Positions 20,334 through 62,721 of a stretch of DNA of 64,000 nt are shown piece by piece. This stretch comes from Streptomyces justiciae (GTDB taxonomy: Bacteria > Actinomycetota > Actinomycetes > Streptomycetales > Streptomycetaceae). A program made the translations under genes and the position numbers. The DNA lies in contig NZ_JADDXU010000012.1 in assembly GCF_015163075.1 (NCBI RefSeq), positions 62,001 to 126,000 of the forward strand. Reading direction: 5' to 3'. The notes below the pieces were generated by a model. The model ran no database searches. It was not told the origin of the DNA and worked only from the letters and a program-made list of their open reading frames with translations. How positions within the stretch are numbered: the first letter of the stretch is position 1; the number at the start of each line of letters is the position of its first letter.

Positions 20334-21263
20334 ATGGCGACACGGCTCGGACTCGGACTCCCCCAGAACAAGCAGTACGACCTCGGCCGCGACGTCCCCG
20401 ACGTGGCCCGCGCCGCCGAGGCGACCGGCTACGACAGCCTGTGGGTGTACGAGCGCGCCCTGTTCCCCGAGCCGGCCACCCAGGGCCTGTACGGCATCGA
20501 GGGACTGCCCTGGCCGGAGGCGTACCGCGGGGTCGCCGACCCGCTGGTCACGCTCACCCTGGCCGCCGCGGTGACCGAGCGGGCGCGGCTCGGCACCAGC
20601 GTGCTGGTCGCCCCGCTGCACGTGCCGTTCCAGCTCGCCAAGTCCCTCGCCTCGCTGGACGCGGCGAGCGGCGGCCGGGTCGTCGCGGGGCTCGGCACCG
20701 GCTGGTCCCTCGACGAGTACGCGGCCGCGTCGGTGCGCCCCTTCGAGGAGCGCGGGCAGGTCCTGGACGAGCTGATCGAGGTGTGCCGCGCGGTCTGGGG
20801 CCCGGACCCGGTGACGTACGACGGGCGGCTCACGAAGATCGCGTCCGCCGTGGTGGGCCCCAAGCCCGCCCGGCCGATCCCGATCCTGCTGCCGGCCATG
20901 TCGAACAAGGCCCGGCGCAGGCTCGTCGACCACGCCGACGGCTGGATGCCGGTCGGCATGGGCGCCGAGACGCTGGCCGCACAGTGGAAGGAGCTCCAGG
21001 AGCTGGCCGCCGAGCGCGGGCGCACGGAACCGATCCAGACGGTCGTACGCGTCAACACGCGGTACTCGGCGTCCGGTCACTCCGGTGCCGACCGCGCCCC
21101 CTTCCAGGGCAGCGTCGACCAGATCGTCGAGGACCTGGTCGCCCACGCCGAGGTCGGCCTGGACGAGATCCTGATCGAACTCCAGGGCTCCGTGCGGGAC
21201 GCGCGGGAGTTGAAGGAGGTCGCCGCGGAGGTGTACGAGAAGGCGCGCGCGGCCGGGATCTAG
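20334..21263 (+). CDS. LLM-class F420-dependent oxidoreductase
   Basis: A 309-residue luciferase-like monooxygenase family protein (TIM barrel). Typical features are GLGLPQNKQYDLG at the start, RARLGTSVLVAPLHVPFQLAK (about 83-103), SGGRVVAGLGTGWSLDEY (about 116-133) and a C-terminal IVEDLVAHAEVGLDEILIEL. In actinobacteria such proteins usually use cofactor F420 rather than FMN. The substrate cannot be named. The ATG has an excellent ribosome binding site (AAAGGAG, 6 bases away). The gene overlaps the convergent amine oxidase gene by 4 bp. Confidence 0.88.
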   Translation: MATRLGLGLPQNKQYDLGRDVPDVARAAEATGYDSLWVYERALFPEPATQGLYGIEGLPWPEAYRGVADPLVTLTLAAAVTERARLGTSVLVAPLHVPFQLAKSLASLDAASGGRVVAGLGTGWSLDEYAAASVRPFEERGQVLDELIEVCRAVWGPDPVTYDGRLTKIASAVVGPKPARPIPILLPAMSNKARRRLVDHADGWMPVGMGAETLAAQWKELQELAAERGRTEPIQTVVRVNTRYSASGHSGADRAPFQGSVDQIVEDLVAHAEVGLDEILIELQGSVRDARELKEVAAEVYEKARAAGI

Positions 21264-22957
21264 TCCTCGGGCAGCTCGACCGGCGCGATCTCGTCGTACA
21301 CGTCACCCGGTCCCGGGTTGGTCGCGTCGGTGGTGCCGCCGAAGTGGTGCATGACGCCCCAGACCGCGTTCAGCGCGGTCTGGACCGCGCCCTCGGCCCA
21401 GCCGGCCGTCCAGGAGACGTCGTCGCCCGCGAGGAAGATGCCGCGCTTGTCGGCGGGCAGCCGGTCCTGCATGAAGTGGGTGAACAGGCGCCGCTGGTAG
21501 CGGTAGTGGCCGGGCAGGTTGGCCTTGAACGCGCCCATGAAGTACGGCTCGTTCTCCCAGGAGACCGTCACCGGGTTGCCGATGATGTGCTTCCTGATGT
21601 CGACCTTCGGGTAGATCTCGCCGAGCGACTTCAGCATGACCTCCATCCGCTCGTTCGCGGACAGCGGCAGCCACTTCAGGCTGTCGTCGCACCAGGTGTA
21701 CGACAGGCAGATGACGGCCGGCTTGCCGGGGCCGTCGTCGAGGAGGTAAGTCCCGCGCGTCATACGGTCGGTGAGGGTCATCGACATGACGTCCCGGCCC
21801 GTCTCCTCGTCCTTGTCCAGCCAGAACGGCCGGTCGACGGGCACGAAGAGCTTGCTGGACTCCATGTAGTGGGTGCGCTCGATCGCGGTCCAGTGGTCGA
21901 TCGGGAAGAGCGAGTCGTCGCAGGCGATCTTCGAAAGGAGCATCCAGGACTGGGCGGTGAAGACGGCCGCCTGGTAGGTGCGGATGTCGCCGTTCGCGTC
22001 GGTGACCGTGATCTGGTTGCCGGCCGTGCGGTGCAGCCGGGTCACGGCGGGGCGGGGTTCGCCGTTCGCGTGCAGGCTCGCCAGCGAGGTGCCGTACGGC
22101 CAGTGGACGATCTTCTCCGGCGTACGCTCCCACAGCCGCAGCGGCAGCTGCTGGGAGCCACCGACGATGCCGCGGTGGTGGTCGTCGGCCTCGGAGTAGA
22201 CGACGCGGAGGATCTCCAGGATGGAGTTGGGGAAGTCGGTGTCCCAGCCGCCGGTGCCGAAGCCGACCTGGCCGAAGATCTCGCGGTGGCGGAAGGACCT
22301 GAACGCCTCGGAATCGCAGAGGAAGCCGTAGAAGGTCTGGTTGTCGAGCTTCTCGACGAGCTTCGCCCAGATCTCCCGGATGCGCGGCACGTCCCGCTCG
22401 CGCATGGCCTGGTTCATGTCGGAGAAGTCGGCGCCCTCTTCGAGGCACTTGTTCCAGGCGGCGGCGACATCGCGGTAGACCTGCGGCAGGTCGTCGATGG
22501 TCTCGGCGTAGTGCGACTCGCCCTTGAGGTCGACGACGGTCGAAGGCGTGGCTTCCGCAAGGGGGTTGGGGAACGGGCGGGTCTCAAGGCCCACCAGGTC
22601 GATGTAGTGCTGGAGGGCGGTGGAGGACGGCGGGAACCGCATCGCGCCCATCTCGGCCGTCAGGGAGCTGTCACAGCCCTCGAAGCCGACCGTCCGCAGC
22701 CGTCCGCCGATCTGGTCGGCCTCGTAGACGACCGGCTTCAGGCCCATCTTCATCAGCTCGTAGGCGGCCACGATGCCGGACAGACCGCCGCCGATGACCG
22801 CGACCTCGGTGCCGTGCTCGGTCGCCGGTATCTGGCCGAGGCCCGCCGGGTGGGCGAGGAAGTCGTCGTACGCGTACGGGAAGTCCGGGCCGAACATGGT
22901 GATCGGCGGCTGCTGCACGTCGGCGTGCTGGACGGCGTTGGGCACCGTGGACGTCAT
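21260..22957 (-). CDS. Flavin amine oxidase, possible aromatic amino-acid 2-monooxygenase
   Basis: A 565-residue FAD-dependent amine oxidase. The dinucleotide-binding motif VAVIGGGLSGIVAAYEL lies at about residues 53-69, followed by VVYEADQIGGRL. The C-terminal FAD-binding part is GIFLAGDDVSWTAGWAEGAV. The length and the pre-barrel extension MFGPDFPYAYDDFL resemble tryptophan/phenylalanine 2-monooxygenases and L-amino-acid oxidases more than small-amine oxidases. The next gene on the same strand is a nitrilase-family hydrolase 43 bp upstream, which would fit an amino acid to amide to acid route. AAGGAG nine bases upstream of the ATG at 22957 fixes the start; a longer frame runs antisense into the nitrilase gene and is not used. 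Confidence 0.85.
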   Translation of the reverse strand: MTSTVPNAVQHADVQQPPITMFGPDFPYAYDDFLAHPAGLGQIPATEHGTEVAVIGGGLSGIVAAYELMKMGLKPVVYEADQIGGRLRTVGFEGCDSSLTAEMGAMRFPPSSTALQHYIDLVGLETRPFPNPLAEATPSTVVDLKGESHYAETIDDLPQVYRDVAAAWNKCLEEGADFSDMNQAMRERDVPRIREIWAKLVEKLDNQTFYGFLCDSEAFRSFRHREIFGQVGFGTGGWDTDFPNSILEILRVVYSEADDHHRGIVGGSQQLPLRLWERTPEKIVHWPYGTSLASLHANGEPRPAVTRLHRTAGNQITVTDANGDIRTYQAAVFTAQSWMLLSKIACDDSLFPIDHWTAIERTHYMESSKLFVPVDRPFWLDKDEETGRDVMSMTLTDRMTRGTYLLDDGPGKPAVICLSYTWCDDSLKWLPLSANERMEVMLKSLGEIYPKVDIRKHIIGNPVTVSWENEPYFMGAFKANLPGHYRYQRRLFTHFMQDRLPADKRGIFLAGDDVSWTAGWAEGAVQTALNAVWGVMHHFGGTTDATNPGPGDVYDEIAPVELPED

Positions 22958-23000
22958 GGGGTACGGACTCCTTGCGAATGCTGCGAAGACTGCGGGGTGT

Positions 23001-23780
23001 TCAGACGTAGAGCTCGGGACGCCGGTCCCGCAGATACGGGTTGGCCTCGCGGGAGGCGGCGAGGAAGGCCGGGTCGGCGTCCGCGAACACCAGCTGCTCA
23101 CCGCGACCGGCGCGGGTGCGGGCGACCCCGTCGGGGCCGGCGAGGACGGAGAGCCCGACGAACTCGAACTCCCCTTCCTGGCCGACCCGGTTGACGTAGG
23201 CGACGTACATCTGGTTCTCGAAGGCCCGCACCGGGATCATCGACTCGGCGACGAACTGGAACGGGTGCATCTGGGCGGTCGGGACGACGAGGAGGTCCGT
23301 CCCGGCGAGGGCGTGCGCCCGGACGTTCTCCGGGAACTCGACGTCGTAGCAGATCAGCAGCCCGACGGTCAGACCGTTCAGCTCGGCCTGGACGACATGC
23401 CGCTCACCCGGCGTGAAGTGGTCGCGCTCGAAGCAGCCGAAGAGGTGGGTCTTGCGGTAGTTGGCGAGGCGTTCACCGGTGGCCGAGATCAACTGGGCGG
23501 AGTTGAAGACGGAACCGGAAGAGGCTTCCGGGTATCCGTACGCGATGGCCACCCCGTGCCGCGCGGCGATCTCCGCGACCGCGTCCGCGCCCTCCCCGTC
23601 GGCCGGCTCGGCGAGGCGGGCGATGTCGTCGCCGATGGCGTACCCGGTGAGGAACATCTCCGGCGCGGCCAGCAGCCCGGCGCCCGCGGCGGCGGCACGG
23701 CCCGCGGCCTCGTCGAGGACCTTGAGGTTCCCGTCGACCGAGCCGGGGCGGCCGGAGCTCTGGAGCAGGGCGGTGCGCAT
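23001..23780 (-). CDS. Nitrilase-superfamily carbon-nitrogen hydrolase
   Basis: A 259-residue enzyme with the complete Glu-Lys-Cys triad: Glu41 in APEMFLTGY, Lys110 in NYRKTHLFG and Cys144 in LLICYDVEFPE. Such proteins hydrolyse amides, carbamoyl groups or nitriles in the cytosol. The size and the CYDVEFPE context suit an aliphatic or aryl amidase. It is transcribed together with the downstream flavin amine oxidase, which suggests it acts on the amide that oxidase could form. The start ATG at 23780 gives the standard MRTALLQ strand. Confidence 0.9.
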   Translation of the reverse strand: MRTALLQSSGRPGSVDGNLKVLDEAAGRAAAAGAGLLAAPEMFLTGYAIGDDIARLAEPADGEGADAVAEIAARHGVAIAYGYPEASSGSVFNSAQLISATGERLANYRKTHLFGCFERDHFTPGERHVVQAELNGLTVGLLICYDVEFPENVRAHALAGTDLLVVPTAQMHPFQFVAESMIPVRAFENQMYVAYVNRVGQEGEFEFVGLSVLAGPDGVARTRAGRGEQLVFADADPAFLAASREANPYLRDRRPELYV

Positions 23781-23899
23781 GCGTGATCCTCACCGGGGCG
23801 GAAGGGGTGGTTGCGGGGGCCATCCAAAGGGGCCATGTAGACGGTACGGGCGCCTGACCAGGCCCGACAAGAAGGAGCCGTTGCGCGCCGCCGAGCGGT

Positions 23900-25111
23900 T
23901 CATTGCGCGCGAGGCGGCCCCGGCGGCGATTCGTTGCGTCGGCCGCCGAGGACCAGGGCGGTGACCAGGTAGGGCACCGCGAGGATCACGAAGACGGTGC
24001 GGTGCTCGGCGCGCGCGCCGAGCAGGACGTACGCCGCGAACGTGACGACCGTCAGGAGTTCGGTGCCCAGGCTCGCCACCGAGGTGAGGGTGGCCCGGCG
24101 GGCGTCGTCGATGCGGTGCTGGAGGCGTACGTCGGCGAGCACCTCCGCCAGCTGGAAGCCACCGAAGGCGAGGCCCACGAGCGCGATGCCGGCCGGGGTG
24201 CGGAGCGCGGCGCCGACAGCCATCGCCAGCGCGGAGGCTGCCAGCAGCCAGGCCATGCCGGTGGTGCCGAGGCGTTCGGCGGGCCCGCTCAGCAGGCTCG
24301 CGGCGGTGACGAGGGTCCAGACGAGCAGGATCAGATAGGGCACGGTCGCCTCGGCGACTCCGGTGTCCCGGGTCAGCAGGGGCGTGTACTCGTCGAGCGC
24401 GCCCCACACCGCGGCGACGGCCGGGATCAACAGCAGGGCACGGCGGACGGAACGGTTCCCGCGCGCTTCGCCGAGCCCGGTCCGCAGGGTCAGCCACCAG
24501 CCGTCACCGCCGGTCTCCCGCCCGGCGCGGTGCTCAGGGAGCCGGGTCGCCGCCACGGCGGCCAGCACACAGGCGAGGACACTGGCCGCGCCCACGCCCA
24601 TGTAGCCGCCCAGCGCGAACACCGGCCCCGCGAGTCCGATCGACGCCATGGTGGCGGCCAGCCGCGCCGCCCGGACCCGCCCCATCACGCGCGCGTACCG
24701 GTCGGCGGCCCCGAGCCGCTCCAGCTCGTCGTAGGCCAGCGCCTCCAGCGAACCGGAGCAGAGCGCGCCACCGACGCCCCACAGGACGAAGCCGAGCGCG
24801 AAGGCCCCGTACGACGGGACGATCACCCACAGCGCGAAGCCGACCGCGTTGAACAGCGGGCCGACCCACAGCAGCAGCCGCCGGGAGACGGCGTCGGCCA
24901 GGGCGCCGGAGGGCACCTCCAGCACGACGGCGGTGATCGACCACAGGGCGAAGAGTGAGGAGATCTGCCAGAGGGACATCCCCGTGTCCGCGAACAGCAG
25001 CGCGTACACGGGGTAGAGCAGCACGAAGTCGTCGAGGAACGCGTAGCCGTACAGCGTGCTCGTCAGCCGACGGACCGCGGTCGCGGGCACACGTGCAGGT
25101 GAGAGTGTCAT
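23900..25111 (-). CDS. MFS transporter (drug-efflux-like)
   Basis: A 403-residue membrane protein with about 12 hydrophobic segments. The MFS loop reads PSGALADAVSRRLLLWVG near residues 68-85, and a helix ends with LGTELLTVVTFAAYVLLGA. The sequence fits the broad multidrug or unassigned MFS group; the substrate is not known. The ATG at 25111 has GGAAGG close upstream; the upstream in-frame extension lacks homology. It ends 119 bp before the nitrilase gene, with no regulator adjacent. Confidence 0.88.
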   Translation of the reverse strand: MTLSPARVPATAVRRLTSTLYGYAFLDDFVLLYPVYALLFADTGMSLWQISSLFALWSITAVVLEVPSGALADAVSRRLLLWVGPLFNAVGFALWVIVPSYGAFALGFVLWGVGGALCSGSLEALAYDELERLGAADRYARVMGRVRAARLAATMASIGLAGPVFALGGYMGVGAASVLACVLAAVAATRLPEHRAGRETGGDGWWLTLRTGLGEARGNRSVRRALLLIPAVAAVWGALDEYTPLLTRDTGVAEATVPYLILLVWTLVTAASLLSGPAERLGTTGMAWLLAASALAMAVGAALRTPAGIALVGLAFGGFQLAEVLADVRLQHRIDDARRATLTSVASLGTELLTVVTFAAYVLLGARAEHRTVFVILAVPYLVTALVLGGRRNESPPGPPRAQ

Positions 25112-25258
25112 GAGGCCTTCCCGGAAGGGCGGTTCGGACGTCGTCGGTACGGCGTCCGAGGCGGCCCTCGGGAGGCACGGCTGGTGGATCAATGTCGCCA
25201 GGTCATGACACCGATGCTAGACAGGTCCGGTCCCGCTGCCCAGCGAAAATCAGTGCCT

Positions 25259-25915
25259 CTACATGAGGAGCGCCCGCAGTGCCGAGGGGGTCAACCCGGC
25301 CAGGCTGGCCTCCACCGTCCGGCCGGGTGCCGCCTCGATGGGGGCGAGGGACGGCACCGCGAGCACCGTGCAGCCGGCCGCCTCGGCGGAGGCGACGCCG
25401 GTCTCGGTGTCCTCGACGGCGACGCATCCCGAGGGGTCCACGCCCAGCGCGTGGCACGCGGCGAGATAGGGGTCCGGGTCGGGCTTGGTGCGGTCGGTGT
25501 CGTCGGCGGTGACGGAGACGGCGAAGCGGTCCGTGCCCAGCACGTCGAGCACGGTGTCGGCGACCGATCTCGGGGACGCGGTCACCAGGGCCGTGGGCAC
25601 CCCCTCGCGGGCCAGCGCGTCGAGCAGGTCGAGGGCGCCGGGGCGGGGTACGACCCCGGTGCGGACGCGGTCGGCGAACTCCTGGTGGAGGGTGCCGGCG
25701 AGGTCGACGGCCGGGGTGCCGGTGGCCGCGGACAGCCAGCCGGCGGTGTGTTCGACGGGGCGGCCGAGCACATCCGCCCGGTCCGCCTCGGTCAGGTCCC
25801 GTCCGGCGACCCGCTCCACCGCCTCCCACCACAGCCGCTCGGTGTCGACGAGCGTGCCGTCCATGTCGAACAGGACGGCCTGGAGCGGGAGTCGGGTCAT
25901 GTCGGTCTCTTTCAT
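25259..25915 (-). CDS. HAD-superfamily phosphatase
   Basis: A 218-residue HAD hydrolase of the beta-phosphoglucomutase/phosphoglycolate-phosphatase group: nucleophile motif LFDMDGTLVDTE (Asp18 and Asp20), the TASP threonine motif and KPDPDPYLAACHALG for the conserved Lys. The motif differs from PhnX (phosphonoacetaldehyde hydrolase), which normally reads DWAGTTVD. It overlaps the ABC ATPase stop by 4 bp and so is coupled to an importer; the likely role is to remove phosphate from the imported compound. A second ATG at 25900 with AAAGAG upstream could be the real start (213 residues). Confidence 0.88.
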   Translation of the reverse strand: MKETDMTRLPLQAVLFDMDGTLVDTERLWWEAVERVAGRDLTEADRADVLGRPVEHTAGWLSAATGTPAVDLAGTLHQEFADRVRTGVVPRPGALDLLDALAREGVPTALVTASPRSVADTVLDVLGTDRFAVSVTADDTDRTKPDPDPYLAACHALGVDPSGCVAVEDTETGVASAEAAGCTVLAVPSLAPIEAAPGRTVEASLAGLTPSALRALLM

Positions 25916-26994
25916 ACGGTACGTTCCGCGGCCAGCACCGGCCGCTCGGGCAGGGACACGCTCACCGGGGCCCCGGCGACGAGATCAGCGGCCTCATGCG
26001 CGGGCAGATCGGCCTTGACCTCGCTGCCGTCGGCGAGCCGGACGGTGATCCGGACGGCCGCACCCAGGAACGACGTGGCGAGCACACGCGCCTTCCCGTC
26101 GGCGTCGGCGGCCACCCGGACCGCCTCGGGCCGCACCAGCACGTCCACCTCACCGGCCTGCGGCGCCGCGCCGTCGACCGGCAGCCGCTGCCCGAGCACA
26201 TCCACCACCCCGTCGGAGACCCGGCCCGGAATCCGGCTCATCGTCCCGACGAACTCGGCGACGAAGGCCGTGGCGGGCCGGCCGTACAACTCGGCGGGCG
26301 CCGCGCACTGTTCGAGCTTCCCGGCGTGCATCACGGCGACCCGGTCGGCCATGGACAGGGCCTCCTCCTGGTCGTGGGTGACGAACAAGGTGGTGATGCC
26401 GAGCTCCTGCTGGAGCCGCCGGATCTCCTCGCGGAGCGTGAGCCGCACCTTGGCGTCCAGCGCGGACAGCGGCTCGTCGAGGAGCAGCACCCGGGGCCGC
26501 AGGGCGAGGGCGCGGGCCAGCGCGACGCGCTGCTGCTGGCCGCCGGAGAGCTGGTGCGGATAGCGCCCGCCCTTGTCGGCGAGCCCGACCAGTTCCAGCA
26601 ACTCGGCGGCACGGGCCCGCCGTTCACCCGTGCGCACGCCTCGCATCCGCAGCCCGAAGGCCACGTTGTCGACCGTGTCGAGGTGCGGGAAGAGGCTGTA
26701 CGACTGGAAGACCATCCCGGCGTCACGCCGGTGGGCCGGGACCCGGGTGACGTCCTCGCCGTCCACCAACACCTCGCCGGAGTCGGGGCGTTCGAAGCCG
26801 GCGAGCATCCGCAGGGCGGTGGTCTTGCCGCAGCCGGACGGGCCGAGCAGGGCGACCAGCTCACCGGGGCGGACGGTCAGATCGAGGCCGTCGAGCGCGA
26901 CCGTGGGCCCGAACTCCCTTCTGAGTCCCCGGAATTCAACGGTGGCGGCCTTGTCTGTGGTGTTCGACGTGGCGACGTTCTCTTTGGTTTTCAT
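25912..26994 (-). CDS. ABC importer ATPase
   Basis: A 360-residue MalK/PotA-type ATPase: Walker A LLGPSGCGKTT (about residues 50-60), signature QLSGGQQQRVALARAL, Walker B VLLLDEPLSALDAKVR, and the switch histidine in LFVTHDQEEA. A TOBE domain covers about residues 285-350. It energises the two permeases encoded just upstream. The gap to the preceding permease gene is only 3 bp, and its stop overlaps the HAD gene. The domain layout is shared by iron, polyamine, thiamine and 2-aminoethylphosphonate importers, so it does not fix the substrate. Confidence 0.93.
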   Translation of the reverse strand: MKTKENVATSNTTDKAATVEFRGLRREFGPTVALDGLDLTVRPGELVALLGPSGCGKTTALRMLAGFERPDSGEVLVDGEDVTRVPAHRRDAGMVFQSYSLFPHLDTVDNVAFGLRMRGVRTGERRARAAELLELVGLADKGGRYPHQLSGGQQQRVALARALALRPRVLLLDEPLSALDAKVRLTLREEIRRLQQELGITTLFVTHDQEEALSMADRVAVMHAGKLEQCAAPAELYGRPATAFVAEFVGTMSRIPGRVSDGVVDVLGQRLPVDGAAPQAGEVDVLVRPEAVRVAADADGKARVLATSFLGAAVRITVRLADGSEVKADLPAHEAADLVAGAPVSVSLPERPVLAAERTV

Positions 26995-26997
26995 GGT

Positions 26998-27810
26998 TCA
27001 ACCCCGGGAGGTGGTACGGGAACGCCCGCCGAAGCCGGCCAGGACGAGGAGCAGCAGCCAGGTGACGAGCAGGCTCATCACGGACACGGCGACGGACAAC
27101 TGGGCCTGTGAGCCACTGACGTTGACGATCCAGACGGCGAAGGGCCGGAAGCCCAGCAGCTGGGCCACGGTGAACTCGCCGAGCACCAGCGCCAGGGTGA
27201 GGAAGGAGGCGTTGAGCAGGGCGCCGCGCAGGTTGGGCAGCACGGCCTGGACAAGGGCCTGCGGCCAGCTCGCGCCACAGCTCCGGGCAGCCTCGACGAG
27301 AGTGGGGACGTCGATCGCGCGCAGTCCGGCGTCCAGCGCCCGGTACACGAAGGGCAGCGCCATCACGACGTACGCCAGAACCAGCACCACGGGGAAGTCG
27401 GGGTTCTGGATCGCCACGAAGGTCTGGAACAGCGGTGTGCGCGAGAGGTGTTCCGGCCCCCACTTCAGGACCGTGACGATGCCGGCGACGAACGCGATCG
27501 GCGGCACGACCAGCGGCAGCGAGCACACCACCTCCACCACCGGACGCAGCTTCGGCGCCCCGAGCCGCAGCGCGACCATGGCGGGCACCATCAGCAGCAG
27601 GACGACGGCGATGGTGGCGAGGGCCAGCTCCAGCGAGAGCAGCAGGCTGGAGCCGAAGCCGCCGGTGCCGACGATCTGCGTGTAGGCGTCGACGGTGAGG
27701 CCCTGGCCGGGCACGTCGACCGTGAAGACGACGGAGGCGGCCAGCGGCACCAGGAAGTACAGCCCGGCGAGGCCGAACACGCCCCACCGCCACAGGTTCA
27801 GGCGAGCCAT
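26998..27810 (-). CDS. ABC importer permease 2
   Basis: A 270-residue inner-membrane permease with about six transmembrane segments and the EAA-loop region ALDAGLRAIDVPTLVEAARS (about residues 150-170), which contacts the ATPase. It resembles PotC/ThiP-half-type permeases. The ATG at 27810 gives MARLNLWRWGVFG, a typical cytoplasmic start before the first helix. It overlaps the upstream permease gene by 13 bp, indicating tight coupling. Confidence 0.9.
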   Translation of the reverse strand: MARLNLWRWGVFGLAGLYFLVPLAASVVFTVDVPGQGLTVDAYTQIVGTGGFGSSLLLSLELALATIAVVLLLMVPAMVALRLGAPKLRPVVEVVCSLPLVVPPIAFVAGIVTVLKWGPEHLSRTPLFQTFVAIQNPDFPVVLVLAYVVMALPFVYRALDAGLRAIDVPTLVEAARSCGASWPQALVQAVLPNLRGALLNASFLTLALVLGEFTVAQLLGFRPFAVWIVNVSGSQAQLSVAVSVMSLLVTWLLLLVLAGFGGRSRTTSRG

Positions 27811-28682
27811 CGCGCACTCCTCCGCTGCAGGGGCAGGTACACCGCCATGACGAGGCCCGCGACGAGGACCATGTCGAGGCTGAGGGCGAGCGCCACGTTC
27901 TCCTGGCCGACGAGCACGTTGCCGGAGAGCGCGTCGGCGATCTGCAGGGTGATCAGCGGGACGGAACTGCCCACGATCGCGGCGGCGGTGGCGTAGGCCG
28001 CGAAGGCGCTGCCGAAGAGCAGCACGAACCCGCCGAGGAGCGTGGGCAGCAGGACGGGCAGGGCGACGTGCAGCCAGTACTGCGCGGTGGTCGCCCCGTT
28101 GTTCTGCGCGGCCTCGCGCCACTGGACGCGCAGCCCCTCCAGGGCGGGGGTGATGGTGAGGACCATCAGCGGGATGAGGAAGTACAGGTAGACGACGACC
28201 AGTCCCCAGAAGCTGTAGAGGTCCCAGCCCTTGTCGGTGAGGCCCAGGTGCCGGGTCAGCACGCCGGCGTTGCCGAGGGTGGCGACGAAGGCGAAGGCGA
28301 GCGGGACGCCGCCGAAGTTGGCGAGGACGCCGGAGGCGGTGAGCACGGCCTCGCGCAGCGCGCGGTGCCGGGAGGTGACGACGGCCTGGGCGAGCGGCAG
28401 TCCGAGGAGCGTCGCGAGGGCGGCGGAGACGGCGGACAGCTTGACGCTGCCGAGGAGGGCGGTGAGGTAGGCGCCCTGCCACGAGGCGGTGAGGTTGGCC
28501 GTGCTGTAGGCGCCGGTGCTCTTGACCGTGAAGGCACCGTCGAGGACCGCCCACGCGGGCAGCCCGAAGGCCACCGCGGTGAAGGCGAGCAGCGGGACGA
28601 CGGCGACCCAGCCGAGCGACCGGCGCCGCCGCTTCACCGCGGCGGCGGGCGCCGTGTCGACCCTCGGGAGCGTGGCCGTCAT
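27798..28682 (-). CDS. ABC importer permease 1
   Basis: A 294-residue permease of the same type as its partner, with an N-terminal cytoplasmic tail (VDTAPAAAVKRRRRSLG), about six helices and the EAA loop PALEGLRVQWREAAQNNG. Together with permease 2 it should form the heterodimeric channel. Its start overlaps the stop of the binding-protein gene by 4 bp. Confidence 0.9.
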   Translation of the reverse strand: MTATLPRVDTAPAAAVKRRRRSLGWVAVVPLLAFTAVAFGLPAWAVLDGAFTVKSTGAYSTANLTASWQGAYLTALLGSVKLSAVSAALATLLGLPLAQAVVTSRHRALREAVLTASGVLANFGGVPLAFAFVATLGNAGVLTRHLGLTDKGWDLYSFWGLVVVYLYFLIPLMVLTITPALEGLRVQWREAAQNNGATTAQYWLHVALPVLLPTLLGGFVLLFGSAFAAYATAAAIVGSSVPLITLQIADALSGNVLVGQENVALALSLDMVLVAGLVMAVYLPLQRRSARWLA

Positions 28683-29824
28683 CCGGAGACGGCCTTCGCC
28701 CAGCCCTGCCCGAGGACCGTCTTGGCCTTGTCCTGCTGGGCCTCGGTCGGGAAGGAGGGCGTGCCGGAGACCTCGGGGAGCTTGGCCGCGGCGGTCTTGT
28801 CGAGGGTGCCGGCCTTCTCCATGGCGGTCATCAGGGCCGGGCGGGCGTAGCCCTTGAGCCACAGGTTCTGGCCCTCGGCGCTGTAGAGGTACTCCTGCCA
28901 CAGCCGGGCGGCCGCCGGGTGCGGGGCGTCCTTGTTGATGGCCTGGGAGTAGTACTGGGAGAACTGCCCGTCGCTCGGCACGGCGACCTTCCAGTCCACG
29001 CCCTTGGACTTGAACTCCTCGGCGTACCCGGCGTTGAGGTAGTCCCAGTCGATGCTGATCGGCGTCTCGCCCTTCTCGACGGTGGCCGGGGTGGACTCGA
29101 CGGGCGTGTAATTGCCGTTGTCCTTCAGCTTCTTGAAGAAGTCGAGGCCCGGCTGGATGTCGTCGAAGGAGCCGCCGTTCGCGAGCGCGGCCGCCCAGAC
29201 GCCGCCGAACGCCGAACCGGACTTGGTGGGGTTGCCGTTGAGGGCGACCTGGCCCTTGTACTGCGGCTTGAGCAGGTCGGCGAAGGTGGTGGGACAGGAC
29301 TTGACGCGCTTGGCGTCGCAGCCGATGGAGATGTAGCCGCCGTAGTCGTTGTACCAGCGGGCCTGCGCGTCCTTCTGCCCGCTCGGGATGTCGGCGAACG
29401 AGGCGACCTTGTACGGCGCGAGGAGCCCCTGCTGGGCGGCGCTGATCGCGAAGGAGCTGCCGAGGTCGAGGACGTCGGGGGCGCGGTCCTGGCCCTTGCG
29501 CGACGTCACGGCGTTGATCTCGTCCTGGCTGGCGCCGTCGGGGTTCTCGACGGAGATCTTGATGCCGTACTTCTTCTCGAACCCGTCGATGAGCGCACCG
29601 TAGTTGGCCCAGTCGCGGGGCAGCGCGATGGCGTTGAGCGCGCCCTCCTTCTTGGCCGCCTTCTCGAGGGCGGCGAGCCCGCCGAGGTCGGCGGCGGAGG
29701 TGGCGGTGGCGGCGTTCTTGCCGTCGGCGGTGGTGGACGCGGTGTCGGGGGCGGCGCCGCAGGCGCTCAGGGTGAGCGCTGCTATGGCGCCGAGGGCGGC
29801 GGTTCTCGGCAGGGACAAGGTCAC
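28679..29824 (-). CDS. ABC importer substrate-binding lipoprotein
   Basis: A 381-residue extracellular solute-binding protein. The signal peptide ends in the lipobox TLSAC (Cys about residue 22), so it is anchored to the outer face of the membrane. The mature part (LPRDWANYGALIDGFEKKYG, PTKSGSAFGGVWAAALANG) is of the Fe3+/polyamine/phosphonate-type family-1 fold. It starts at GTG with GGAG five bases upstream. It is the first gene of a five-gene operon (binding protein, two permeases, ATPase, HAD phosphatase) divergent from a GntR regulator. The HAD partner suggests a phosphorylated substrate; this is inference. Confidence 0.9.
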   Translation of the reverse strand: MTLSLPRTAALGAIAALTLSACGAAPDTASTTADGKNAATATSAADLGGLAALEKAAKKEGALNAIALPRDWANYGALIDGFEKKYGIKISVENPDGASQDEINAVTSRKGQDRAPDVLDLGSSFAISAAQQGLLAPYKVASFADIPSGQKDAQARWYNDYGGYISIGCDAKRVKSCPTTFADLLKPQYKGQVALNGNPTKSGSAFGGVWAAALANGGSFDDIQPGLDFFKKLKDNGNYTPVESTPATVEKGETPISIDWDYLNAGYAEEFKSKGVDWKVAVPSDGQFSQYYSQAINKDAPHPAAARLWQEYLYSAEGQNLWLKGYARPALMTAMEKAGTLDKTAAAKLPEVSGTPSFPTEAQQDKAKTVLGQGWAKAVSG

Positions 29825-29844
29825 GGCTTCTCCAGGGCGTTGAG

Positions 29845-29942
29845 AACTTGTCTGAACAAGTTGGCCCCAGTAAGGCTGCCGCTGGTGTCGTGTTCGTAAA
29901 CACTGAAGAAACCCTGACCCCCGGATTCCGGGCCAATCAGGG
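29845..29942. promoter_or_regulatory. Cluster of three inverted repeats between importer and GntR genes
   Basis: AACTTGT-CTGA-ACAAGTT (29845-29862) and GTGTT-CGTA-AACAC (29890-29903) are operator-like palindromes. At 29912-29942, CCCTGA and TCAGGG enclose an inner CCCGGA-T-TCCGGG hairpin. All three lie within the 190 bp between the divergent genes. The first is closest to a GntR/HutC-type site and sits 20 bp ahead of the binding-protein start, well placed for repression. Confidence 0.5.
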
Positions 29943-30014
29943 TCCCCTCCACCCGTCGCCAGATGTCGACTAGGCTGGTCACGCTGTGCACAGCATTCGA
30001 CTCAGAGGGGAAGC

Positions 30015-30755
30015 ATGGCGGCGCGACACGAGGAGATCGCCGACGAACTGCGCCGGGCGATAGACCGCGAGGAGTACACGGTCGGCAGTCGACTGCCCGC
30101 CGAGACGGACCTCGCCGCCCACTACGGAGTCTCCCGGGGCACGGTCCGCCAGGCCGTCGCGGCCCTGACCGCCGAGGGCCTGATCGGCTCCCGCCAGGGC
30201 GCCCGCCGCGTGGTGCTGGCCAGCCGCCGCAGCCAGAGCTTCGCGGAGCTGCGCAGCTTCGCCCAGTGGGCACGGGCGATGGGCCGCGAGGCAACAGGCC
30301 AGGTGATCGCGCAGGAGTACCGCCCGGCTACCGCCGAGGACGCCGTACGCCTCCAACTGCGCGCGGGCACACCGGTGTTGCACGTCCTACGGGTCCGCGG
30401 CCTGGACGGCGAACCGGTGCTCCTGGAACGGACGGTGTACGCCGACTGGATCTCCCCGGCGGTCGAACCGATCGAGCCGGACTGCCCGTCCGTCACCCAA
30501 CGCCTGTACGACGACACGGGGTTGGTCTTCGCGTACGGCGAGCACGTCATCGACGCGGTCGCGGCGGGCGCACAGGACGCGGACCTCCTGTCCGTCCGCC
30601 GCACCAGCCCCCTCCTCCGCGTCCGCCGCGTGACGACGACCCGAGAGGGCCGCCCGGTGGAGTGGTCGGACGACCGCTACCGCTCGGACGCGGTGAGCTT
30701 CAGCGTGCACAACTCGATGGACAACAACGCGCTGGCGAGGAAGACGGCGGAGTAG
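30015..30755 (+). CDS. GntR/HutC-family regulator with UTRA domain
   Basis: A 246-residue protein. The winged helix at residues about 5-70 contains LPAETDLAAHYGVSRGTVRQ, a classic GntR recognition helix. The UTRA ligand-binding domain covers about 90-240 (VLHVLRVRGLDGEPVLLERT and the closing VEWSDDRYRSDAVSF). GAGGGG lies just before the ATG. It is divergent from the ABC importer operon and is the obvious candidate regulator of it. The general layout resembles PhnR of the 2-aminoethylphosphonate system, but that identity is not established. Confidence 0.92.
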   Translation: MAARHEEIADELRRAIDREEYTVGSRLPAETDLAAHYGVSRGTVRQAVAALTAEGLIGSRQGARRVVLASRRSQSFAELRSFAQWARAMGREATGQVIAQEYRPATAEDAVRLQLRAGTPVLHVLRVRGLDGEPVLLERTVYADWISPAVEPIEPDCPSVTQRLYDDTGLVFAYGEHVIDAVAAGAQDADLLSVRRTSPLLRVRRVTTTREGRPVEWSDDRYRSDAVSFSVHNSMDNNALARKTAE

Positions 30756-30806
30756 AACTCGGGGAGTGAGGTGCGGGGCTTTTGGGAGCAGGGGGCGCGG
30801 CGAGGT

Positions 30807-30857
30807 GCTTTTAGGGGCGCGGGGAACTGCGCGACCGGCCACAACGCACCCGCACCC
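30807..30857 (+). repeat. Dispersed GGGGCGCGGGG element, copy C
   Basis: Short-form copy with core AGGGGCGCGGGGAACTGCGC, about 50 bp after the GntR stop and in the same orientation as that gene. It lies between converging genes (GntR and Lrp). Confidence 0.7.
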
Positions 30858-30883
30858 GGCAACGAACCGCAACCAGCCGAGCT

Positions 30884-31336
30884 CTACCCCGGCGCCCCCG
30901 ACGAGAACCGCCTCAACAACGGCGACAACACCAACACCGACTTGGTCCGCTCAACGAACGGCTCCCCGGCGATCCGCTCCAGCACCCTCTCGAAGTGCCG
31001 CATGTCAGACGCGAAAACCTGCACGATCGCATCCGCATCCCCGGTGACGGTGGACGCGGCCACGACCTCCTGATACCGCTCCAGCCCCCGCCGAATCGTC
31101 TCCGGCGACGTGTTGTGCCGGCAGTAGATCTCGACGAACCCCTCGGTCTCCCACCCCAGCGCCGACGGATCGACCCGCACCGTGAACCCGGTGATGGCGC
31201 CGGTGGCCCGCAACCGGTCGACGCGTCGTTTCACGGCGGGCGCGGACAGACCGACGATCTGCCCGATGTCCGCGTAGGAGCGGCGGGCGTCCTCGGCGAG
31301 GGCGTGGACGATACGTTCGTCGAGATCGTTGAGCAC
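30884..31336 (-). CDS. Lrp/AsnC-family regulator
   Basis: A 150-residue regulator. The N-terminal helix-turn-helix (YADIGQIVGLSAPAVKRRVD, residues about 21-40) is followed by a RAM ligand-binding domain (residues about 65-140, TGDADAIVQVFASD). Such proteins form octamers that wrap DNA and respond to amino acids. It starts at GTG and lies 10 bp after an amino-acid permease gene on the same strand, so the pair is an operon. Three phased TTGCG-CGCAA sites upstream of that permease are the likely targets. Confidence 0.92.
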   Translation of the reverse strand: MLNDLDERIVHALAEDARRSYADIGQIVGLSAPAVKRRVDRLRATGAITGFTVRVDPSALGWETEGFVEIYCRHNTSPETIRRGLERYQEVVAASTVTGDADAIVQVFASDMRHFERVLERIAGEPFVERTKSVLVLSPLLRRFSSGAPG

Positions 31337-31346
31337 GGTGGGTGGA

Positions 31347-32831
31347 TCAGCTCTCAGGTGATGCGGGTGATGCGGACGTTGCGGTTGTCGCGAGACGGGA
31401 ACGGCGATGGCCGTACACGAAGTAGAACACGAGCCCGGCCGCCATCCAGACTCCGAAGACCACCCAGGTGACGGCGGACAGGCTGCCCATCATCCAGACG
31501 CAGAACCCGAGCCCCAGCACAGGCAGCACCGGCGACAGCGGCACCCGGAAGGTGCGCGGCATGTCCGGACGCGTCCGGCGCAGCACCACGACGGCGATGT
31601 TGACCAGCCCGAAGGCGAAGAGCGTGCCGATACTGGTGGCGTCGGCGAGCTGCCCCAGCGGGATCGCGGCGGCGAGGACACCGCAGAACAGGGACACGAT
31701 CACCGTGTTGGCACGCGGCGTACCGGTCTTCGGGTGCACGCGCCCGAACACCTTCGGCACCAGCCCGTCCCGGGACATGGCGAAGAGGATGCGGGTCTGG
31801 CCGTAGAGCACGGTCAGGACGACGCTGGCGATGGCGATGACCGCGCACGCGGCCAGCAAAGTCCCCCAGAAGCTCTGTCCGGTCACCTCGCGCATGATCT
31901 GGGCGAGCGCGGCCTCGGAGTCCCCGAACCGCTCCCAGGGCTTCGCACCGACGGCGACGGCCGCGACGAGGACGTACAGCGCGGTGACGATGACCAGCGA
32001 CAGCATGATCGCGCGCGGCAGGTCGCGCTGGGCGTTCTTCGCCTCCTCACCGGCGGTGGAGGCGGCGTCGAAGCCGATGTACGAGAAGAAGAGCGTCGCC
32101 CCGGCCGCGCTGACGCCCGCCATGCCGAGCGGCATGAAGTGCTCGTAGTTGCCGGAGCGGAAGCCCTGGATGCCGATGGCGCAGAACAGCACCAGCGCGC
32201 CGATCTTCACGACCACCATGATCGTGTTGGCGCGCGCGGACTCCCGCGCCCCGCCCAGCAGGAACGCCATGGCGAGGAGGACGACGATCAGCGCCGGGAG
32301 GTTGAAGATGCCGCCGTCGCCGGGCGGCGCGGACAGCGCGTCCGGGATGGTGACGCCGATGGTCCCGTCGAGCAGCTCGTTGAGGTACTCGCCCCAGCCG
32401 ACCGCGACGGCGGCGACCGAGACGCCGTACTCCAGCAGCAGACACCAGCCGCAGACCCAGGCGACCAGTTCGCCCAGCGTTGCGTACGCGTACGAGTACG
32501 AGGAGCCCGCGACCGGGATGGTGCCCGCGAGCTCGGCGTAGGACAGGGCCGAGAAGAGGGCCGTCAGTCCGGCGATGACGAAGGACAGGGTGACGGCGGG
32601 ACCGGCCTTGGGCACGGCCTCGCCGAGGACGACGAAGATGCCGGTGCCGAGGGTGGCACCGATGCTGATCATGGTCAGCTGCCACAGCCCGAGGGTGCGG
32701 CGCAGACTGCCGCCCTCGCCCTGGCCACCCTCGGCGACCAGGCGTTCCACGGGCTTGCGCCGCATGAGGCGGGCGCCGAGCCCAGGGGACGGCGTGGTGC
32801 GGTGTTGCGGGGGTGCGCCTTGGTCGAGCAC
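31347..32831 (-). CDS. APC-family amino-acid permease
   Basis: A 494-residue amino acid/cation symporter with about 12 or more hydrophobic segments. Family motifs are ISIGATLGTGIFVVLGEAV (about residues 55-73) and FFSYIGFDAASTAGEEAKN (about 245-263), which place it in the cationic amino acid transporter (CAT) branch. The GTG at 32831 is chosen for AAGGAG 7-8 bases upstream; an upstream extension reads through the ribosome binding site. The Lrp regulator gene follows by 10 bp. The substrate is probably a basic or branched amino acid, not proven. Confidence 0.9.
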   Translation of the reverse strand: MLDQGAPPQHRTTPSPGLGARLMRRKPVERLVAEGGQGEGGSLRRTLGLWQLTMISIGATLGTGIFVVLGEAVPKAGPAVTLSFVIAGLTALFSALSYAELAGTIPVAGSSYSYAYATLGELVAWVCGWCLLLEYGVSVAAVAVGWGEYLNELLDGTIGVTIPDALSAPPGDGGIFNLPALIVVLLAMAFLLGGARESARANTIMVVVKIGALVLFCAIGIQGFRSGNYEHFMPLGMAGVSAAGATLFFSYIGFDAASTAGEEAKNAQRDLPRAIMLSLVIVTALYVLVAAVAVGAKPWERFGDSEAALAQIMREVTGQSFWGTLLAACAVIAIASVVLTVLYGQTRILFAMSRDGLVPKVFGRVHPKTGTPRANTVIVSLFCGVLAAAIPLGQLADATSIGTLFAFGLVNIAVVVLRRTRPDMPRTFRVPLSPVLPVLGLGFCVWMMGSLSAVTWVVFGVWMAAGLVFYFVYGHRRSRLATTATSASPASPES

Positions 32832-32924
32832 GCGCTGACTCCTTCGTCGCTGCGGTCGGCGCGGCAGGGACCGGCGGGCAAGGACCACCGAGCGGGGTCC
32901 CTGCCACGCCACGTACAGCGCATG

Positions 32925-32954
32925 ACCCTATGAGCCAGGGCATCACGGTCGTAA
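32925..32954 (-). promoter_or_regulatory. Candidate promoter of permease-lrp operon
   Basis: On the minus strand TTACGA (32954-32949), an 18-bp spacer and TAGGGT (32930-32925) form a weak -35/-10 pair. It lies directly downstream of the Lrp-type sites, the geometry expected for activation. Tentative. Confidence 0.3.
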
Positions 32955-32964
32955 TGCAGCAACT

Positions 32965-33031
32965 TTGCGCATACACGCAAGATCGTTGCGTTCATCGCAG
33001 GCCTGCGCGCGTTTGTTGCGCAGCCCCGCAA
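32965..33031. promoter_or_regulatory. Three phased Lrp-type binding sites
   Basis: TTGCG-N6-CGCAA at 32965-32980, TTGCG-N5-CGCAG at 32986-33000 and TTGCG-N6-CGCAA at 33016-33031. Centre distances of about 20.5 and 30.5 bp are close to two and three helical turns, so all face the same side of the DNA. This is a hallmark of Lrp/AsnC wrapping. Confidence 0.65.
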
Positions 33032-33054
33032 TCACGGCTCCCCCGGCTGAGCGC

Positions 33055-34539
<1,485 letters not shown>

Positions 34540-61614: not shown

Positions 61615-62721
61615 CTACAGCGCGAGCAGCTCCTTGGTCGTGATGGTGAGTAGCTCGGGTCCGCCGTCCGCCTCGGGGCGTACGACGAGCGTGTCATCGA
61701 TCCGGACACCGCCCCGGCCCGGGAGGTGGACCCCCGGTTCGACGGTGACCGGCACGCAAGCGTCCAGTTTACCCATGGCCGCGGGGGCCAGCTGCGGGTC
61801 CTCGTCGATTTCGAGTCCGACACCGTGTCCGGTCAGGGCCGGCAGGCCCTCGCCGTACCCCGCGGAGTCCAGCACCTGGCGTGCGGCGCGGTCCACGTCA
61901 CGGTACGCGGCGCCGGGTGCGAGGCTCTCCCGGCCGGCGCGCTGAGCGGCGAAGACCAGGTCGTACAGCTCGATCTGCCAGTCCGCGGGGGACGTCCCGA
62001 TCACGAACGTACGGCCGATCTCGCAGCGGTAGCCGCGGTACGTCGCGCCGAGGCAGACGGAGAGGAAGTCGCCCTCCTCCACGCGCCGGTCGGTGGGACG
62101 GTGGGCGCGACGGCCGGAGTGCGGGCCGGTGGCGACGGAGGTCGCGAAGGCGGGGCCGTCGGCGCCGTGGTCGACGAGGCGGCGCTCCAGTTCGAGGGCG
62201 AGGTGCCGTTCGGTACGGCCGACGAGGATGGATTCGAGGAGTTCACCGAGCGCCTGGTCGGCGATCTCGGCGCCGATGCGGAGGCAGGAGATCTCCTCCT
62301 CGTCCTTGACGACCCGGAGCTGCTCCACGGCTGCGCCGAGGTCGGTGAGGTGGAGGCGGGGGGCGACGGAGCGGATGGCTCTGTGGCGCGCGACGGTGAG
62401 GTGGTGTTCTTCCACGGCGAGAGCGTCGATGCCCTGGATCGAGGCCAGGTCGACCGCCGCGACGGCGGGGTCGCCACCTGACCCAGGCAGGGTCTGCAGG
62501 CGGAGGGTCTCGTCGGGTCGGCCCTCTCCGGCACGGTCGTCCGGCGGATCGAGGCACACCAGCACGTCTTCTGTCCTGCCGAGCAGCAGGACGGAGCCCT
62601 TGGGTGCGGCGCCCGCCAGGTAGCGCACGTTGGCGGGGCGCGAGATCAGTGCCGATGCGCTGCCGACCGCGTGGCAGCGTTCCCTGAGCTTTGTGCGGCG
62701 GGCCGCGTACACCTCTGACAT
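61615..62721 (-). CDS. M24-family aminopeptidase P-like protein with altered metal ligands
   Basis: A 368-residue pita-bread-fold protein. The N-terminal creatinase-like domain covers about residues 1-130 and the M24 domain about 140-368. The usual five ligands (Asp, Asp, His, Glu, Glu) are only partly kept: the first is Cys223 ([11 protein letters not shown]), the second Glu234 (CEIGRTF), then His299 (GHGVGLEI), Glu328 (VEPGVHLPG) and Asp342 (VRIDDTLVV). It may use a different metal, have low activity or bind ligand only. It lies 59 bp upstream of efp, the order known in other actinobacteria, and is usually annotated pepP/pepQ. Confidence 0.85.

Follow-up and report, generated by a model that had tools for sequence, protein, structure and literature searches.

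Phased GCAA half-sites at two promoters suggest a local Lrp circuit for amino-acid uptake and breakdown in Streptomyces justiciae

Results

The permease-lrp operon and its promoter

The window, by which we mean the whole stretch of 64,000 nucleotides that was analysed, spans positions 62,001 to 126,000 of the forward strand of contig NZ_JADDXU010000012.1 from Streptomyces justiciae (GCF_015163075.1). The genome of this strain comprises 10.45 Mb, and genome-wide pattern counts refer to all of it. On the minus strand of the window, an APC/CAT-type amino-acid permease gene (31347-32831; the putative start is a GTG preceded by GAAGGAG) is followed after 10 bp by the gene for an Lrp/AsnC family regulator of 150 amino acids (30884-31336). 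Upstream lies a guaB1-type GMP reductase gene (33055-34506, minus strand; TIGR01303 and NF052358 above cut-off), a neighbour that we place outside the circuit proposed below.

In its longer ORF reading the permease scores 613.1 bits against TIGR00909 (cut-off 556.8), which assigns it to the CAT/APC subfamily. Its best solved relatives are 5oqt (E 4.3e-130) and 6f34 (E 8.2e-129), followed by cationic amino acid transporters. The best substrate-specific model is that of the branched-chain permease BcaP, with a score (518.8 bits) below the cut-off of 690, and the cationic model gives 314.6 bits against a cut-off of 681.7. The regulator possesses an AsnC-type helix-turn-helix (PF13404, 57.1 bits, cut-off 27) and a C-terminal ligand-binding domain (PF01037, 54.4 bits, cut-off 25). 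Its scores with the AsnC and LysM family models, 67.4 and 66.9 bits, are both far below cut-off (180 for LysM), so that these models do not single out lysine. The best match in the PDB is PH1519 (E 8.2e-17); this protein is FL11, by way of entry 2e1c, and lysine and arginine appear among the FL11 effectors in the available part of PMC2995911.

A promoter-like sequence, TTACGA-N18-TAGGGT, is located directly downstream of the sites described below. The predicted -35 element TTACGA (32949-32954, minus strand), which overlaps a conserved TTGCTGCATT, lies at a distance of 14 bp measured from where the last GCAA starts, and the predicted -10 element TAGGGT occupies 32925-32930 on the same strand. 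The leader of the permease mRNA contains a potential, strong stem-loop (32857-32911, minus strand; fold z = -3.15). An alignment of 33 of the 61 leaders, from which row L204 was dropped for wrong coordinates, shows 3 of its 19 pairs changed on both sides and a small covariation term, and the stem-loop is missing from L021 and L032, in which the leader is 43 nt long. A search of Rfam over 23700-33300, the stem-loop and both arrays included, gave no match at E up to 1.

Three sites lie between this promoter and guaB1, all assigned to the minus strand. The proximal one (32965-32980) is a perfect TTGCG-N6-CGCAA with GCAA at 32965-32968. The middle site (32986-33000) reads TTGCG-N5-CGCAG along the forward strand, with one mismatch; its conserved half is CGCAA in the direction of the permease, with GCAA at 32986-32989, and is followed by a conserved GATC. 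The distal site (33016-33031) is again a perfect TTGCG-N6-CGCAA, the conserved half being the GCAA at 33016-33019 (GCAAC on the minus strand), and 23 bp separate it from the end of the guaB1-type gene. The centres of the sites, at 32972.5, 32993 and 33023.5, are 20.5 and 30.5 bp apart, and in these positions and distances the sequence agrees with the first-pass annotation of this DNA. The TTGCG-CGCAA pattern produces five strand-matches in the window, all within the three sites. In 100 dinucleotide-preserving shuffles the mean was 0.77 (sd 1.07), and one shuffle reached five. Genome-wide the perfect palindrome occurs at seven places, two of them here, against eight for the reversed control. 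Since there is no enrichment, the signal rests on clustering and conservation rather than on the motif by itself.

The conserved unit upstream of the permease is an array of half-sites

Comparison loci were fetched with the Lrp protein as the query, not with the sites, and the best 80 of 547 were used. Of these, 79 are titled Streptomyces and one (L082) is Kitasatospora aureofaciens. A permease precedes lrp, with enough sequence for analysis, in 61 loci; 16 possess no permease, and three (L050, L061 and L064) were too short and were omitted. Together with the window, the 61 loci provide the 62 rows on which the counts for the array at this promoter (array 1) are based.

The arrangement conserved in these rows is GCAA-30-GCAA-21-GCAA-14-[-35]-24-[-10], with all three GCAA at the exact spacing of 30 and 21 in 57 of 62. 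When positions are counted on the permease strand from the proximal site as anchor, the distal core GCAAC at -39 is exact in 56 rows, CGCAA at -10, within the middle site, is present in all 62, and GATC at -4 in 60. The proximal site shows TTGCG at 0 in 43 rows and CGCAA at 11 in 58. Farther downstream, TTGCTGCATT at 18 is found in 54, TT at the place of the -35 in 62, and TAGNNT at 50, the place of the -10, in 56. A further GCAAC at -60 is present in 41 rows, the window not being one of them. Conservation is low further upstream, and in a mononucleotide shuffle control even a looser pattern was found in 0 of 3100 rows. The helical phasing on one face of the DNA, which the first-pass annotation had read from a single sequence, is real and conserved.

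The palindromes behave differently. In 4 of 62 rows the left TTGCG half of the distal site is perfect or has a single mismatch, and the left half of the middle N5 site is present within one mismatch in 6. Allowing one mismatch per palindrome, the proximal site qualifies in 55 rows, the proximal and middle sites together in 6, and all three in 2, namely the window and L006. On these counts the palindrome was rejected as the functional motif, and the earlier description of the motif as three TTGCG-CGCAA palindromes is not supported. The same annotation had proposed a search of orthologous loci for the three-site spacing; the spacing was kept in such loci, and two of the three palindromes were not. 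Because the GCAA spacing is retained while palindromes are weak or lost, the conserved unit is a set of phased, same-strand GCAA half-sites, of which the proximal one possesses a mirror half in most Streptomyces loci.

This picture extends to other genera. Fourteen stretches were picked by matches to R1, a sequence-only profile of array 1; in one of them (L210) the permease match is partial and the upstream stretch misplaced, and another (L209) has an Lrp match only. In 10 loci from other genera that were checked the proximal palindrome is weak (5-8 of 10 positions, with 0-3 of 5 in the left half), and in all 10 the last GCAA is 14 bp before a -35-like TTA. A looser triple is present in 12 of 12 stretches with an amidase match and in 6 of 11 with a permease match. 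The guaB1, permease, lrp, amidase and oxidase genes are found together in most of the loci fetched from other genera. At E 0.01, R1 matches 151 of 297 genomes of the family, any kind of place being counted.

A second array precedes an amidase/amine-oxidase operon

The first-pass annotation regarded the permease-lrp circuit as self-contained. This view must be revised, because a second conserved array, 9 kb from array 1, precedes an operon for an amidase and an amine oxidase (21260-23780). Array 2 (23881-23937, minus strand) has GCAA at 23934-23937, 23903-23906 and 23881-23884, with spacings of 31 and 22, and the first two GCAA overlap the final codons of the MFS-type ORF that lies upstream (23900-25192). 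The predicted promoter (23841-23870, minus strand) consists of a -35 element TTGTCG at 23865-23870, N18 and a -10 element TACCGT at 23841-23846. The last GCAA is 14 bp before the -35, which is TTGTCC in most aligned rows, and the -10 follows 24 bp on, giving a geometry of 31-22-14-24.

The first gene of this operon encodes a carbon-nitrogen hydrolase (23001-23780, minus strand; PF00795, E 1.1e-48) with a probable DavA-like role, and the second a flavin amine oxidase (21260-22957, minus strand, from its predicted start). DavA belongs to the carbon-nitrogen hydrolase family. The closest solved relative of the oxidase is the L-amino acid oxidase/monooxygenase 3we0, which we take to be the L-lysine enzyme from a Pseudomonas. 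The match (E 1.3e-238) covers residues 7-554 of 557 and thus amounts to full-length homology to an enzyme of the DavB kind; with the tryptophan 2-monooxygenase 4iv9 the value is 5.9e-56. DavB is lysine 2-monooxygenase and DavA is 5-aminovaleramidase, as given in the accessible portions of PMC5054628 and PMC4980613.

With R1, the places recovered in the S. justiciae genome were array 1 (E 6.9e-24), window positions 23879-23952 (E 0.0033) and a place beside an Lrp paralog (E 0.12). The joint pattern GCAA-N26/27-GCAA-N17/18-GCAA-N10-TT has two matches in 10.45 Mb, both at the two promoters described here, and none in the reversed control; as the pattern was drawn from these promoters, its uniqueness measures specificity and not prediction. 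Among the 80 lrp-fetched loci, 39 show the amidase in the flank, and array 2 is exact in 38 of these, with CTTG at the end of the 14-bp distance in every one; in the 39th (L045) the first gap is 2 bp shorter. The amidase adjoins the oxidase in 19 of 19 further loci (L183-L201), which were picked for a double R1 match and are biased toward array 2, a bias from which the 39-locus count is free. Row set A1 comprised 45 of the 62 rows, and A2 comprised 32 of 36 candidate loci, with L169, L172 and L182 (no amidase match) and L179 (degenerate first half-site) omitted.

At a threshold of E 0.001, a profile of array 2 (R2) has matches in 140 of the 147 genomes of the order, a figure that counts genomes with a match at whatever place. 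R2 does not list array 1 of its own genome at E up to 10, and it does find array 1 places in some other genomes. What the two arrays have in common is therefore mainly the spacing and the half-site, and less the sequence as a whole. When 150 candidates per profile were scored in the S. justiciae genome, no further target was better than E 0.075 (R2) or 0.12 (R1).

Co-occurrence of array, regulator and enzyme

The 16 permease-less loci constitute a natural experiment. All carry guaB1 and lrp, and in none does the sequence between these two genes contain a palindrome that matches at 9 or 10 positions; in L051 and L069 the gap between the two genes is only 10 bases. The amidase is visible in the flank of seven, each of which keeps array 2. 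A genome-wide scan of the same 16 with R1 puts the top match upstream of the amidase in 13 genomes, next to the Lrp paralog in two and at neither place in one. The first-pass annotation had array 1 directly upstream of a promoter and the permease-lrp operon; this placement was confirmed, is conserved in the loci, and tracks with the permease. In L034 and L065, C-terminal remnants of a permease are present between guaB1 and lrp, and both the permease and array 1 have been lost.

Regulator, enzyme and array are tied together by co-occurrence, with G028 as a possible exception. Within a set of 150 genomes of the genus, S. justiciae included, 144 possess an ortholog-grade lrp (best E below 1e-60), three (G028, G120 and G121) have only a paralog-grade match, and three (G037, G050 and G079) have no lrp match at E 1e-30. 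Five of these six genomes also lack the oxidase (E 1e-60). Among these five, R2 matches are weak in G037, G050 and G079 (E 0.027 to 0.095; the G050 and G079 assemblies are 82% and 78% complete), and those in G120 (E 1.5e-7) and G121 (E 1.5e-4) adjoin the Lrp paralog. In G028, an assembly of about 1,300 contigs, the oxidase and array 2 are present and an lrp ortholog was not found; the contig starts just before the array. One of the 144 is G010, in which the lrp ortholog match (G010:C2:6076560-6077003) contains an internal TGA and the genome keeps the oxidase and array 2.

An Lrp paralog and a cluster of IclR-type sites

The S. justiciae genome encodes an Lrp paralog with 55% identity (L202:2986-3600, on G000:C12) that adjoins a dimethylargininase gene (NF045659, 391.6 bits, cut-off 300). 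The next ORF beyond reads like an ornithine aminotransferase, a name given by eye. The paralog promoter in this genome can be written as GCAGCGAA-31-GCAGC-21-GCAAT-14-TTGTCG-24-TACCTT. A relaxed pattern at the same distances (GCA then A or G) is present beside the paralog in three of five genomes (S. justiciae, L172 and L258, not L169 or L259) and was found 0 times in a 160-kb (two-strand) control. The R1 match beside the S. justiciae paralog is on the strand opposite to this geometry.

On the same contig, the region G000:C12:342703-390177 (L116-L119) holds five perfect TTGCG-N5-CGCAA sites within 48 kb, out of seven N5/N6 palindromes genome-wide. This cluster encodes an IclR-family regulator, a glycine-betaine-monooxygenase-like oxygenase and a sarcosine-oxidase/demethylase-like protein, the last two with scores below the cut-offs. 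The five palindromes are probably the operator of that regulator, and with such a gene content they were rejected as Lrp targets. Conversely, array 1 does not have the form of an IclR-type N5 operator, as its conserved proximal site is N6, the left half of the middle N5 site is found within one mismatch in 6 of 62 rows, and the palindrome is weak in other genera.

Discussion

We propose, with a probability of about 0.6, that the local Lrp/AsnC protein controls amino-acid uptake together with a DavB/DavA-type pathway, probably in response to lysine and probably as an activator. The Lrp product of 30884-31336 would bind both its own permease-lrp promoter, implying autoregulation, and the amidase/amine-oxidase promoter. 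At each of these it would recognize three GCAAYGA-type half-sites in the same orientation, separated first by about three and next by about two turns of the helix, with the last half-site 14 bp upstream of the -35. Lrp dimers aligned on one face of the DNA could then make contact with, or wrap, the DNA immediately upstream of RNA polymerase. The amino acid would be imported by the permease and oxidatively decarboxylated to an amide, which would in turn be hydrolysed. The closest solved relative of the oxidase favours L-lysine as this amino acid, and lysine is also the likely effector and the leading candidate for that role. The assignment of the sites to Lrp in the first-pass annotation was probably right. 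Weighing against the proposal are the BcaP score of the permease and the absence of array 1 from the R2 matches in its own genome, both of which lowered our estimate somewhat, and further the family scores of the Lrp, the R1 matches in only 151 of 297 family genomes, the case of G028, the use of TTGCG-N5-CGCAA in what looks like an IclR-type regulon, and the incompleteness of two of the five assemblies without the oxidase.

Neighbouring half-sites are 21-22 and 30-31 bp apart at the two promoters, distances that fit the alignment documented for archaeal Lrp proteins, whose sites are two or three helical turns apart (PMC2995911, in its available part). Activation seems the more likely sign of regulation, since both promoters keep 14 bp between the last half-site and the -35, which suggests an arrangement fixed relative to RNA polymerase. 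The reverse, in which the same Lrp represses both promoters and the effector either relieves or strengthens the repression, is in our estimation unlikely, without being far-fetched. The conserved block at the permease promoter reaches into the -35 (GGTTGCTGCATTAC), so that a bound repressor might cover this hexamer, and FL11 is reported to act as a repressor, more strongly so with its effectors (same part of PMC2995911). However, at neither promoter do the conserved GCAA half-sites extend as far as the -35, and the -10 is free of them. A different question is whether the neighbouring lrp is incidental, the arrays being bound mainly by the 55% paralog or by an IclR-type protein. The similar geometry at the paralog's downstream promoter region in S. 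justiciae, L172 and L258 would fit such a role, as would the array matches kept beside the paralog in G120 and G121, which lack the ortholog, and the clustering of TTGCG-N5-CGCAA sites with an IclR regulator. Yet G120 and G121 lack both the ortholog and the oxidase although the paralog is present, and the 10 loci from other genera keep the GCAA spacing with only 5-8 of 10 palindrome positions, unlike a palindromic operator. We consider binding mainly by another regulator quite improbable.

An amine oxidase with an amidase is also the logic of IaaM/IaaH, and the second operon could in principle make indole-3-acetic acid from tryptophan, with Lrp as the tryptophan sensor. An Lrp of S. scabies does answer to tryptophan, according to the part of PMC11609053 that is accessible, but the 18-bp site quoted there contains no GCAA, and the oxidase is far closer to 3we0 than to 4iv9. 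These observations make the tryptophan reading very doubtful. That the sites are chance palindromes in G+C-rich DNA might be suggested by their lack of genome-wide enrichment (seven against eight in the control); the conservation of the array across 62 loci, set against the low conservation further upstream, and the uniqueness of the geometry in the genome make this explanation negligible.

The lysine-linked Lrp circuit would belong to a general kind that is already known; its delineation is new, and its operator rule is unusually crisp. As a rule, Lrp sites are degenerate and difficult to predict (PMC2995911, accessible part), and here the comparison of loci yields a half-site, a rule for the spacing and a constant distance to the promoter that fit two places in a 10-Mb genome. 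The analysis also offers a candidate regulator for the import of lysine and for catabolism of the 5-aminovalerate type in Streptomyces. Such a circuit was not found in the open-access literature, as judged from titles and the beginnings of abstracts among the matches listed, a body of text to which subscription journals mostly do not belong, and guessed S. coelicolor locus tags matched no paper in the open-access literature.

The archaeal regulators LysM, FL11 and Ss-LrpB share with this Lrp the family domains and, at its proposed sites, the two- or three-turn spacing; lysine is an effector of LysM and FL11, and permeases are among the targets of Ss-LrpB (PMC2995911, in the portion available). 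The S. justiciae case differs in that it is bacterial, its half-site is GCAAYGA and its predicted targets serve uptake and breakdown rather than biosynthesis. The actinomycete Lrp-family regulators SACE_Lrp, SCO3361, SSP_Lrp, SCAB_Lrp and SCAB_Lrp2 are further relatives in kind. E. coli Lrp binds multiple phased sites. Its consensus YAGHAWATTWTDCTR, as quoted in the accessible part of PMC6379999, has 0 matches in the window with up to 3 mismatches. The same part states that SACE_Lrp regulates branched-chain amino acid transport and catabolism. The quoted 18-bp SCAB_Lrp2 site, from the available portion of PMC11609053, is unlike the arrays here in its lack of GCAA.

The paralog promoter raises a broader idea, namely that an actinobacterial branch of Lrp uses one fixed promoter blueprint, which paralogs employ for different cationic amino acids, lysine in one case and arginine/ornithine in the other. 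We advance this tentatively, at somewhat less than even odds, from the promoter geometries. The blueprint may place three half-sites on one strand, at about -6, -3.5 and -1.3 turns of the helix relative to the -35 (31/30-22/21-14-24). If this is true, targets could be read from geometry alone despite the short, degenerate half-site.

The proposed pathway shares with the DavB/DavA pathway the pairing of an oxidase/monooxygenase with an amidase. It differs in gene order, the amidase being first and the oxidase second, and in having a permease-lrp operon nearby, with corresponding arrays at the two operons. Positions 25259-30755 of the window, which separate lrp from the amidase operon, hold genes for a PhnF-like GntR regulator, an ABC transporter and a HAD-family hydrolase; among the family models the transporter ATPase comes nearest to one for 2-aminoethylphosphonate, with a score below the cut-off. 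This cassette looks like an insertion in the S. justiciae lineage, since in 9 of the 11 stretches from other genera that possess both genes no more than about 330 bp separates lrp from the amidase.
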